IMG/VR virus record: IMGVR_UViG_3300005515_000012
Coordinates: 1 to 46,040 of that record
Origin: a virus
Direction: 5' to 3' (one strand)
DNA length: 46,040 nucleotides
Positions 19,545-40,680 of this stretch are shown here, one piece after another; position 1 is the first letter of the stretch, and each line of letters starts with the position of its first letter. The notes beneath the pieces were generated by a model. That model worked only from the letters and a program-made list of their open reading frames with translations, did not search any database and was not told the origin of the DNA. The translations under genes were made by a program, and so were the position numbers.

Positions 19545-19573
19545 GTCATAGCATTACTGAAATTACAGTGCAA
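19545..19573 (-). promoter_or_regulatory. Leftward early promoter (PL-like) with operator in its spacer
   Basis: Minus strand: TTGCAC (19568-19573) and TATGAC (19545-19550) with a 17-base spacer (19551-19567) that contains TTTCAGTAATGC, the operator. The same design (TTGCNN, 17 bases with the operator, TATGNN) is seen at the rightward promoter. Transcription would begin about 25 bases before the ATG at 19514. Confidence 0.65.
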
Positions 19574-19600
19574 CTGAAATTCGGAGCATTACTGAAATTA
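19551..19600. promoter_or_regulatory. Left operator cluster (three repeats)
   Basis: GCATTACTGAAATTA occurs twice exactly (19551-19565 and 19586-19600). A partial copy, GCAACTGAAATTC (19570-19582), lies between them. These are the likely binding sites of the repressor (19667-20023) and/or the Cro-like protein. The first copy lies within the PL-like spacer. Confidence 0.7.
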
Positions 19601-21737: not shown

Positions 21738-22229
21738 ATGACACTCGCAGAACAATTGCATGCCGAGCGCAAGGCCCGGCTGGTGCGCCTTGGCGCTGTG
21801 CCGACCAAGGCCGTCGTTTCTCATCTGACAGAGGCGGATATCATCCCGCTGAAGGTCAAGCCCGCGGCCATTGATGTGCCGTCGGCGGAATCCTTCTGGC
21901 CGTCGCTTTGGTGCTGGGACCTGGTGACGATGCCTCAGAGGCTCCCGTCCTTCTGCAAGACGATCCAGTCCGTCGTCGCGGCGGAATTCAACATCTCCGT
22001 TCTCGACATGCGGTCTACGCGCCGGACGAACAATGTCACGGTCCCCCGCTGGGTCGCGATGTACCTCTGCCAGCAACTACTGGAGTGGTCGCTGCCTCAG
22101 ATCGGCAGACACTTCGGCGGCAAGGATCATACGACGGTGCTGCACGGCCTCAAGCGCGTCGAGGCAATGATGGAGATGGATTTCGACTTCCGCAACAGGG
22201 TCAATTCACTGATGGTGAGGTTCGCATGA
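21738..22229 (+). CDS. DnaA domain IV-like DNA-binding protein
   Basis: Encodes 163 residues. The first 65 residues are not DnaA-like. Residues about 70-150 match domain IV of DnaA, the DNA-box-binding helix-turn-helix, with the signature QIGRHFGGKDHTTVLHGLKR (121-140). The AAA+ ATPase domain is absent. It should bind DnaA-box-like sites and may help recruit or compete with host DnaA at the phage origin. It is followed by RusA, GapR-like and initiator genes. AGGCAGGGG precedes the start. Confidence 0.85.
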   Translation: MTLAEQLHAERKARLVRLGAVPTKAVVSHLTEADIIPLKVKPAAIDVPSAESFWPSLWCWDLVTMPQRLPSFCKTIQSVVAAEFNISVLDMRSTRRTNNVTVPRWVAMYLCQQLLEWSLPQIGRHFGGKDHTTVLHGLKRVEAMMEMDFDFRNRVNSLMVRFA

Positions 22230-22785: not shown

Positions 22786-23011
22786 CAGCCAGGGGCAACT
22801 CAAGGCGCTCGTAGAGCGCATCAATCGCCTGATGGACGATCGCGACGAGGTGTCGAGCGATATTCGAGATGTATTCGCTGAGGCGAAGTCGGCCGGGTAC
22901 GATTTGCCGGCGCTGCGAGCTATCATTCGCTCTCTACGCGAAGATGCCGATAAGCGCCGCAACAGAGAGGCGATGATCGATCTCTATAGCAACGAGCTGG
23001 GGATCGGGTGA
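22769..23011 (+). CDS. GapR-like protein (DUF2312)
   Basis: Encodes 80 residues (83 from an earlier ATG at 22760): LKALVERINRLMDDRDEVSS, FAEAKSAGYDLPALRAIIRS and REAMIDLYSNELG closely follow the DUF2312/GapR pattern. In Alphaproteobacteria GapR binds overtwisted DNA ahead of forks. AGGGGA lies nine bases before 22769, favouring that start. A phage copy may manage supercoiling during phage replication; that is inference. Confidence 0.85.
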   Translation: MEAGHNSQGQLKALVERINRLMDDRDEVSSDIRDVFAEAKSAGYDLPALRAIIRSLREDADKRRNREAMIDLYSNELGIG

Positions 23012-23550
23012 TGGCGCGGGTTGGACTTTCTAAGAAGACCCGCTTTGACATATTCAAGCGGGATGGGTTCCAGTGCGCATATTGCGGCGCGCACCCTTCG
23101 GAGACCGTCCTGCTTGAGGTGGACCACATCCATCCGGTAGCGGAGGGCGGGACTAACGACATCGACAACCTACTGACGGCTTGTTGGGACTGCAACCGCG
23201 GCAAGGGTGCCGGCCTGCTGTCGAGTGCCCCCCAGTCGCTTGAGGAAAAAGCCGTCCAGGTCGCCGAGCGTGAGGCTCAGCTTCGCGCCTATTATCAGAT
23301 CCTCGAACTCCGCGAAGAGCGCAGAGACGAAGATGCGTGGTCCGTAGCTGGAATATTCCTTGAATATTTTGCCATGGCAGCGATGCCGAAGGATGGGATT
23401 ATCAGCATTCGCATGTTCATCGAAAGGCTCGATGTGTTCGAGGTGCGAGAGGCGATGAACATCGCTTGTGCTAGAAAGAATAGCGGATACGCGGTCTGGA
23501 AATATTTTTGCGGCGTGTGCTGGAACAAGATCCGGAGTGCGGGACGCTGA
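23011..23550 (+). CDS. HNH endonuclease-domain protein with long C-terminus
   Basis: Encodes 179 residues. TRFDIFKRDGFQCAYCG (C22, C25), LEVDHIHPVAEGG (D38, H39), DNLLTACWDCNRGKG (N53, C58, C61) is a standard HNH module. About 110 residues follow, largely helical, with IISIRMFIERLDVFEVREAM, possibly for DNA or partner binding. The ATG overlaps the GapR-like stop (TGATG). It lies in the replication operon next to the initiator, so it may act in replication or recombination and not only as a homing enzyme. Confidence 0.82.
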   Translation: MARVGLSKKTRFDIFKRDGFQCAYCGAHPSETVLLEVDHIHPVAEGGTNDIDNLLTACWDCNRGKGAGLLSSAPQSLEEKAVQVAEREAQLRAYYQILELREERRDEDAWSVAGIFLEYFAMAAMPKDGIISIRMFIERLDVFEVREAMNIACARKNSGYAVWKYFCGVCWNKIRSAGR

Positions 23551-24449
23551 TGGCTCGCATTCGCACGATAAAGCCCGAATTTCCGCAATCCGAGAGCGTC
23601 GGGCGACTTTCGCGCGATGCAAGGCTGCTCTATGTCCAACTCTGGACAATTGTTGACGATGCCGGGAGGGCTCGCGCGGCCTCGCGAATGCTCGCGAGCC
23701 TTCTCTATCCGTATGATGACGATGCCCGCGACCTGATAGATGGTTGGTTGGACGAGTTGGAGCAGGGCGAGAAGATCCGCCGCTACGAAGTCGATGGTGC
23801 TCAGTACCTCGAAATCGTTAAGTGGTTGGAACATCAGAAGATTGATAAGCCGTCGAAGTCGCGTCTTCCGGAATTCGTGGAGGGCTCGCGAGTTATCGCG
23901 AATGTTCGCGAGGCTTCGACTACGGACCTAGTACCTAGTACCTTGGACCTAGTACCTCCGAACGCTCCGCGTTCTCGTGCGGCTTCGCCTTCGAATGAGG
24001 ATTTTGAAAAGTTCAAAAAGGACTATCCGAAGCGCGCCGGCAACTATGGTTGGAAGTCCGCCGAGCGAAAGTACCTTGCGCTCGTGAAAACGGGCGTCTC
24101 TCCCCAGGCGATCAGTATTGCTGTCCGGCGGCATGCCGAGGAGATGCGGAAGTTGAAGCGCATCGGCACGGAGTTTGTTCCGATGCCCGCAAGCTGGCTG
24201 AACTCGGAGGATTTCATCGAAAGCGCCGTTGAGGCGTTCGAGGCGCCGCAGCCCGCCGCCGGCTTCTACGCCAAGTTCGGCAGCGAAGAACAGGACGCTT
24301 GGGACGCATTCGGCAAAGCCAAGCTGGGCAAGGCATATCCGCGCGATGGCAAGGGCGGGTGGTGGCATTCGGCGCAGTGGCCGCCAGATTACGTTCCGCT
24401 GGCGCAGGCGCATGGAGCGCCTCCTGTGCCGGTTCTGAAGACTATGTAG
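23550..24449 (+). CDS. Phage replication initiator-like protein
   Basis: Encodes 299 residues. The N-terminus MARIRTIKPEFPQSESVGRL, RLLYVQLWTIVDDAGR is the winged-helix start typical of phage replisome organiser proteins (lambda O / DnaD-like users). A variable linker (residues about 105-150) is followed by a second conserved part (DYPKRAGNYGWKSAERKYLA; PMPASWLNSEDF). It should bind the phage origin and recruit the helicase system. Repeats at 23666-23955 lie inside the gene, the position of the lambda origin within gene O. Confidence 0.8.
   Translation: MARIRTIKPEFPQSESVGRLSRDARLLYVQLWTIVDDAGRARAASRMLASLLYPYDDDARDLIDGWLDELEQGEKIRRYEVDGAQYLEIVKWLEHQKIDKPSKSRLPEFVEGSRVIANVREASTTDLVPSTLDLVPPNAPRSRAASPSNEDFEKFKKDYPKRAGNYGWKSAERKYLALVKTGVSPQAISIAVRRHAEEMRKLKRIGTEFVPMPASWLNSEDFIESAVEAFEAPQPAAGFYAKFGSEEQDAWDAFGKAKLGKAYPRDGKGGWWHSAQWPPDYVPLAQAHGAPPVPVLKTM
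23666..24022. other. Putative phage replication origin (iterons inside the initiator gene)
   Basis: Two 38-base blocks, 23666-23703 and 23880-23917, match at about 32 positions. Each contains three TCGCG cores at 10-base spacing (CTCGCG...TCGCGAATG...TCGCGAG). The blocks lie in different reading frames of the initiator gene, so the likeness is not due to protein sequence. A 7-base tandem follows: CTAGTAC, CTAGTAC, CTTGGAC, CTAGTAC (23928-23955). An AT-rich stretch is at about 23997-24022 (ATTTTGAAAAGTTCAAAAAG). This matches the plan iterons plus AT-rich unwinding element. Confidence 0.55.
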
Positions 24450-40279: not shown

Positions 40280-40636
40280 ATGTCAGAACTAATATGGTTG
40301 CCATGTGATTTCGAAGGCTGCAAGCGCCAAGAGAGCGGAGATTGCGATCATTGCGGTTTCCATGCTGGCGAGATGGAGCTTTTGGAGGCTATTGGCCAAA
40401 AAAAGCAAGCTGACGCGATCAGGAACAAAGCCACTCTTCCTGTTTCGGACAAGGCTATATACGAGCGAGCGACCCGCTCGTCTGCACCCATCGCCACTGT
40501 CCATCTAGATGCTGAACTAGCCCAAGAAGTGGGTATTGACTGGAAATTGAGTGGCGCCGCGGCTCTCATGATTGAAGAGATCAACGAAAACATTCGGAAC
40601 GCGCGGATAATCGGAAACCGGCTTATGGCTGGGTAA
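40280..40636 (+). CDS. Cys-rich protein divergent from the XRE regulator
   Basis: Encodes 118 residues from ATG at 40280 (GAGGGA upstream). The N-terminus LPCDFEGCKRQESGDCDHCG has four Cys and a His for a zinc site. The middle and C-terminus are helical (GAAALMIEEINENIRNARII). GC content seems lower than in its neighbours, which suggests recent acquisition. Unknown function; probably an accessory (moron) gene. Confidence 0.7.
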   Translation: MSELIWLPCDFEGCKRQESGDCDHCGFHAGEMELLEAIGQKKQADAIRNKATLPVSDKAIYERATRSSAPIATVHLDAELAQEVGIDWKLSGAAALMIEEINENIRNARIIGNRLMAG

Positions 40637-40664
40637 AGATCGCTAAAGATCGCTAATAATCGCT
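40635..40664 (+). repeat. Three tandem 10-base repeats
   Basis: AAAGATCGCT (40635-40644), AAAGATCGCT (40645-40654) and AATAATCGCT (40655-40664) begin over the stop codon of the Cys-rich gene and end 16 bases before a terminator. Each unit holds ATCGCTAA. One helical turn per unit suggests a protein-binding array. Confidence 0.75.
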
Positions 40665-40680
40665 AATGAACGACCAAACT

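Follow-up and report, generated by a model that had tools for sequence, protein, structure and literature searches.

The sequence analyzed here (the window) is a 46,040-nucleotide stretch of DNA, positions 1 to 46,040 of the IMG/VR virus record IMGVR_UViG_3300005515_000012, and the phage looks temperate since the window carries an integrase gene. On the plus strand, a replication initiator gene (23550 to 24449) encodes a 299-aa protein that matches the PHROG replication initiation profiles phrog_2149, phrog_1408, and phrog_16167 (E values of 7e-33, 4e-29, and 3e-27, respectively). Its AlphaFold2 model (pLDDT 84) consists of a confidently modeled winged helix-turn-helix N-domain (residues ∼1 to 100), a linker (∼113 to 147) modeled as disordered with pLDDT under 50, and a helical C-domain (149 to 231). 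The C-domain coding region (23994 to 24245, plus strand) is common to initiators with other DNA-binding domains and other iterons, and its product shows a weak PHROG match to the DnaD-like helicase loader phrog_1701 (E value of 5e-5). Searches of Pfam and NCBIfam assigned the initiator to no family, and a PDB sequence search likewise gave none; Phage_rep_O (PF04492) was absent from the Pfam matches at E values of ≤1 for any of 54 members, and RepA_N (PF06970) was absent from the Pfam matches at the same threshold. A PDB fold search with the model returned generic winged helices only (Foldseek E values above 0.05, VIA Z up to 8.0), including 4pql (Z 7.5, rmsd 3.7, 87 aligned), 4pt7 (Z 7.3, rmsd 3.8, 87 aligned), and 5kbj (Z 6.9, rmsd 3.6, 85 aligned), all of which tie with many other winged helices. 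The AICE protein RepAM was rejected as a relative, being a DUF3631 protein outside the initiator family. Upstream, an HNH endonuclease gene (23008 to 23550, plus strand), which is a variable neighbor, ends on the initiator start codon.

Two repeat blocks occur inside the initiator gene on the plus strand, and they are present just as the first-pass annotation had claimed, with agreement at about 32 positions and three TCGCG cores each at 10-base steps. Iteron cluster 1 (23666 to 23703) carries three TCGCG(A) sites at 23672, 23682, and 23692 within the DNA-binding-domain coding sequence, and iteron cluster 2 (23880 to 23917), 214 bp away, carries three TCGCGA sites at 23886, 23896, and 23906 within the linker coding sequence. 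The blocks match at 32 of 38 bases and form the best ungapped 38-mer pair of the whole window at spacings of 39 to 599 bp. All seven matches to TCGCGN5TCGCG found on both strands of the window lie inside the initiator gene, compared with 0.66 in dinucleotide shuffles. Beyond the second block, the 7-base tandem proposed earlier was recovered by TRF as a short array of the unit ACCTAGT (23926 to 23957, plus strand; 4.6 copies, 84% matches), and the disordered linker of the AlphaFold2 model spans the coding sequence of both cluster 2 and this array. Elsewhere, the structural-gene region contains a 10-bp tandem of TAAAGATCGC (40634 to 40666, 3.3 copies).

The blocks are read in different frames of the 299-aa open reading frame (frame 2 for block 1 and frame 0 for block 2), and the earlier suggestion that their likeness exists at the DNA level agrees with both shuffle and synonymous-site tests. 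Relatives were found by protein and made non-redundant at under 90% identity (n = 80); they came mainly from viral contigs, because 385 alphaproteobacterial genomes, when scanned, yielded just 3 matches. In 17 relatives, TCGCG occurred 49 times in block 1 and 47 times in block 2, compared with codon-shuffle nulls of 8.6 and 10.8, while the count outside the blocks was 19 versus 17.8. Among the 80 relatives, TCGCG pairs 10 bp apart numbered 232, versus 6.3 in codon shuffles, and pairs at distances of 6 to 9 and 12 to 15 bp numbered zero; the usual spacings were 10, 20, 21, and 31 bp, which are whole helical turns. The first-pass annotation had named conservation of the protein with loss of the repeats as the outcome that would contradict its reading, and the opposite was observed: among 83 non-redundant relatives found by protein, the window itself included, 75 keep the block 1 sites and 69 those of block 2, with 64 retaining the two sets together.

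The comparison of synonymous sites with the flanks showed a sharp maximum that coincides exactly with block 1, where codons 42 to 51 showed a synonymous identity of 0.82 versus 0.24 expected (z 71, with the caveat that shared ancestry makes z values overstate the independence of the sequences, which affects neither the frame-free block 2 sites nor the position shifts described below). A second, weaker peak (codons 87 to 101, z 20) falls on an AT-rich stretch between the clusters and overlaps the peptide probe HQKID used in the search, making it the less secure of the two; the remaining flanks were close to expectation. One might argue that the likeness reflects nothing but protein constraint combined with high-GC codon usage, and block 1 does encode a conserved stretch, GRARAASRMLASLLYPYD. 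We reject this explanation, however, given the z of 71 against codon shuffles and the block 2 sites, which occupy frames 0, 1, and 2 in 65, 56, and 75 cases, respectively, among the 80 relatives (196 in total versus 43 in codon shuffles). It is also contradicted by the actinophage members, in which cluster 1 lies at gene position 171 to 202 rather than 123 to 143 and the protein at that place differs. As judged from these comparisons, the constraint acts on the DNA.

The same TCGCGA clusters appear at other codons in phages of Gordonia, Mycobacterium, and Propionibacterium and in a Bifidobacterium megaplasmid, in some cases with 11-bp spacing. Gordonia phage Nymphadora (10-bp spacing), Mycobacterium phage Bernal13 (11-bp spacing), and Propionibacterium phage PFR1 (11-bp spacing) each have two clusters with an 8-bp GGAACAG-type array after them. 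In the Bifidobacterium breve megaplasmid pMP7017, a gene annotated as hypothetical (L623:2998-4059) has two clusters that together hold seven TCGCGA sites, along with an 8-bp array, and it may represent the megaplasmid's own initiator and origin. When viral contigs were scanned for TCGCGN5TCGCGN5TCGCG without protein information, the pattern lay inside an initiator of the group in 51 of 120 stretches, whereas the reversed-pattern control (GCGCT) lay inside initiators in 0 of 120. TCGCG was absent from the homologues in phages of Streptomyces, Micromonospora, and Gammaproteobacteria, and a phased k-mer search of the Streptomyces, Micromonospora, Legionella, and Azospirillum homologues revealed no phased iteron, or none convincing; several homologues without TCGCG show only a short tandem array and no phased iteron.

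Other members of the group carry other palindromes. In L166 and L236, two genes whose N-domain has diverged (44% identical) and whose C-domain is related (53% and 39% identical), ACGCGT recurs every 11 bp in two clusters, each with three sites, one or two of the sites in L236 being reduced to ACGCG. ACGCGT pairs at 11 bp were observed 259 times versus 12 in codon shuffles, in a gene set chosen by motif, and when the prediction from this gene pair was tried in a pattern scan for ACGCGT, 103 of 120 stretches had the match within an initiator. One ACGCGT-class initiator (L626:22281-22976) is located on a 46.6-kb circular Bradyrhizobium "plasmid" that is itself a temperate phage genome with integrase, portal, and capsid genes. 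In a further set of genes (L019, L365, and others), an unrelated N-domain (phrog_26426) is fused to the window-type C-domain, which in L365 is 87% identical to that of the window over 90 aa. These genes carry GCTAGC, mostly at gene positions 118, 129, and 150 and again at 277 and 288, and 74 of 120 matches in a GCTAGCA pattern scan lay within initiators with the phrog_26426-type N-domain. By these sequence relationships, three DNA-binding domains pair with three palindromes (TCGCGA, ACGCGT, and GCTAGC) placed in two corresponding parts of the gene, and such joint change of iteron and DNA-binding domain would be expected if the initiator binds its own origin. In addition, the Escherichia phage Louie initiator (L153:3344-3450) contains TGCAAG pairs 11 bp apart together with a CTGATTC 7-bp array, and the pairs are possibly a further iteron class.

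The limits of homology indicate how these parts travel. In TCGCGA-class relatives with other C-termini, homology to the window typically begins at 23546 to 23551, at the start codon, and, where it continues across the linker, stops at 23942 to 23961, the end of the 7-bp array, while in relatives with other N-domains it begins at 23972 to 24000; in many distant relatives the match ends earlier (23845 to 23918), as similarity decay would give. From these breaks it follows that domain, clusters, and array move together, and the plus-strand segment from the start codon to the end of the 7-bp array (23550 to 23957), comprising the DNA-binding domain, both iteron clusters, and the tandem array, is evidently exchanged as one unit. 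The HNH gene directly upstream lies outside this shared unit, because in most relatives the homologous DNA sets in at the start codon of the initiator, and this position weighs against the idea, suggested by that gene and by the fact that TCGCGA, ACGCGT, and GCTAGC are all restriction-site palindromes, that a modification or cutting enzyme acts on the sites. Phages, moreover, usually avoid restriction targets rather than phase and keep them, and we consider such targets very unlikely. A centromere-like partition or incompatibility site seems equally improbable: partition sites are often phased repeats, but the sites described here co-vary with the initiator's own N-domain and the phage has an integrase. 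A ParABS system was rejected, as no ParA-type or ParB-type gene was found in the window.

Two further elements accompany the clusters. The tandem array after cluster 2 recurs across the iteron classes at the same place with units of 5, 7, or 8 bp (7-bp ACCTAGT, 8-bp GGAACAG-type, 7-bp GGGAACA-type, and 5-bp GGGAA, with 7-bp CTGATTC in gammaproteobacterial phages), and period-7 runs were detected in 22 of 80 relatives versus 0.5 in codon shuffles. A conserved AT-rich stretch, a candidate unwinding region, lies between the clusters (23805 to 23852, plus strand), as revealed by the AT content of 75 relatives, in which gene nucleotides 256 to 300 have a mean AT of 0.58 to 0.59 versus a gene mean of 0.43. 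The first-pass annotation had placed an AT-rich stretch after the blocks instead; this is present in the window (47% GC at 23970 to 24059, compared with 43% at 23790 to 23849 between the blocks), but it was not seen on average in the 75 relatives. Within the stretch between the clusters, CATCAGAAGATTG (23832 to 23844) resembles the IHF consensus, with matches in 37 of 80 relatives versus 11.8 in shuffles; this IHF-like site is enriched in two iteron classes and not in the third, and it is kept as a lead.

Taken with the conservation of the DNA and the co-variation of sites and N-domain, which support the earlier proposal of a candidate phage origin within the initiator gene, this layout leads us to infer that the segment from 23666 to 23957 is very probably the replication origin of the phage, located inside its own initiator gene and bound by the winged-helix N-domain. 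The sites could otherwise serve as an operator, at which the initiator or a phage repressor silences its own gene or operon at the level of transcription while the origin lies elsewhere. Sites inside a transcribed gene would allow a bound protein to block RNA polymerase, and iteron-binding initiators often autoregulate as well. Nevertheless, the two clusters lie deep in the gene rather than at a promoter, an operator needs neither an adjoining tandem array nor a conserved AT-rich stretch, and the layout fits the known intragenic origins of lambda (PMC7466680) and pSK41 (PMC5703833). We therefore regard an operator without an origin as improbable, and an operator role does not exclude origin function.

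If the segment is an origin, the winged-helix N-domain would bind the palindromic TCGCGA iterons, with three protomers (or dimers) per cluster lined up next to each other along the same face of the DNA, since successive iterons are spaced by a single helical turn. The two clusters, separated by 214 bp, might then be brought together, and the resulting strain could open nearby DNA, either at the AT-rich stretch between them or at the tandem array beyond cluster 2, with the array serving in unwinding or in initiator loading on single strands. The C-domain would then recruit the host replicative helicase. Because cluster 2 and the array code for the linker, its sequence may be free to follow the DNA, and the DNA-binding domain and its sites would constitute one heritable unit that is swapped whole between phages. 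Among annotated phages, a DnaB-like helicase gene follows the homologous initiator of Arthrobacter phage Pitbull, and in Escherichia phage Louie that place is taken by the gene for a DnaC-like loader. In the window, searches for genes of a DnaB-type helicase and a DnaC-type loader found none, which counts against the proposed loading step.

Other indicators of replication start were also considered. DnaA boxes (TTATNCACA, ≤1 mismatch) numbered zero within 9 kb of the putative origin and 6 in the window versus 13 by chance, and a DnaA-box origin was therefore rejected. For the same reason, the suggested involvement of the window's DnaA-like protein found no support; this 163-aa protein (21738 to 22229, plus strand) has a strong match to the DnaA C-terminal domain (domain IV; E value of 1e-26) and no PHROG match. 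The GC-skew check proposed in the first-pass annotation placed the minimum near 19 to 20 kb, ∼4 kb from the blocks, in a signal confounded by gene orientation, and it was dropped as uninformative. An imperfect, AT-rich 17-bp tandem of the AGCATTACTGAAATTACAG type (19550 to 19600, 2.8 copies) lies near this minimum.

The repeats are a real DNA-level feature and very probably an intragenic origin, of a variant that appears to be new and very widespread. No description of these sites was found in open-access full texts. On balance, we favor the broader view that they represent an undescribed, very widespread class of phage origin, a self-contained replicator cassette in which a DNA-binding domain and its own palindromes (TCGCGA, ACGCGT, GCTAGC, and probably more) are written in the same bases and travel together. 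If so, a single exchange between phages could switch origin specificity, and in many phage genomes the pattern would suffice to predict the origin. This would matter since, to our knowledge, the origins of most temperate phages are unknown. A short DNA pattern locates candidate origins and provides a route to origin annotation in alphaproteobacterial phages, actinophages, and others. There are at least three specificity classes, each combining one palindrome with one DNA-binding domain, and natural domain swaps between them; the co-evolution of initiator and origin and the escape of phages from replication cross-interference thus become directly testable.

Several known systems resemble this arrangement in part. 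The repABC replicons of Rhizobiales, from the same bacterial class, have oriV inside repC and thus share an intragenic origin in an initiator gene, a likeness taken as a lead only. In the mycobacterial RepA phages Miko and Jeeves, deletion analysis led to an origin inferred within or next to repA (PMC7157519), but no repeats were found there, unlike in the window. In lambda and Stx phages, the origin lies in the middle of the initiator gene O, with iterons beside an AT-rich tract (PMC7466680). The window likewise has iterons within its initiator gene; however, lambda has a single array of four to six iterons of ∼19 bp, whereas the window has two clusters of three 6-bp palindromes spaced by one helical turn. 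The conserved AT-rich stretch of the window lies between its clusters. In Rep, the RepA_N protein of pSK41, the sites bound by the winged-helix N-domain are within rep itself, where it codes for a dispensable linker, and the C-domain is DnaD-like; in the pPR9 chimera, N-domain and origin (∼500 bp) were replaced as a unit (PMC5703833). Similarly, in the window the segment coding for the predicted disordered linker holds cluster 2 and the array. Unlike in pSK41, cluster 1 lies in the DNA-binding-domain coding sequence, the sites are 6-bp palindromes at 10- to 11-bp steps in two clusters, and the type occurs in phages of Gram-negative bacteria and actinobacteria. By sequence, the window initiator belongs to neither the RepA_N nor the lambda O family, yet by analogy it appears to work like both, and most of all like RepA_N of pSK41.
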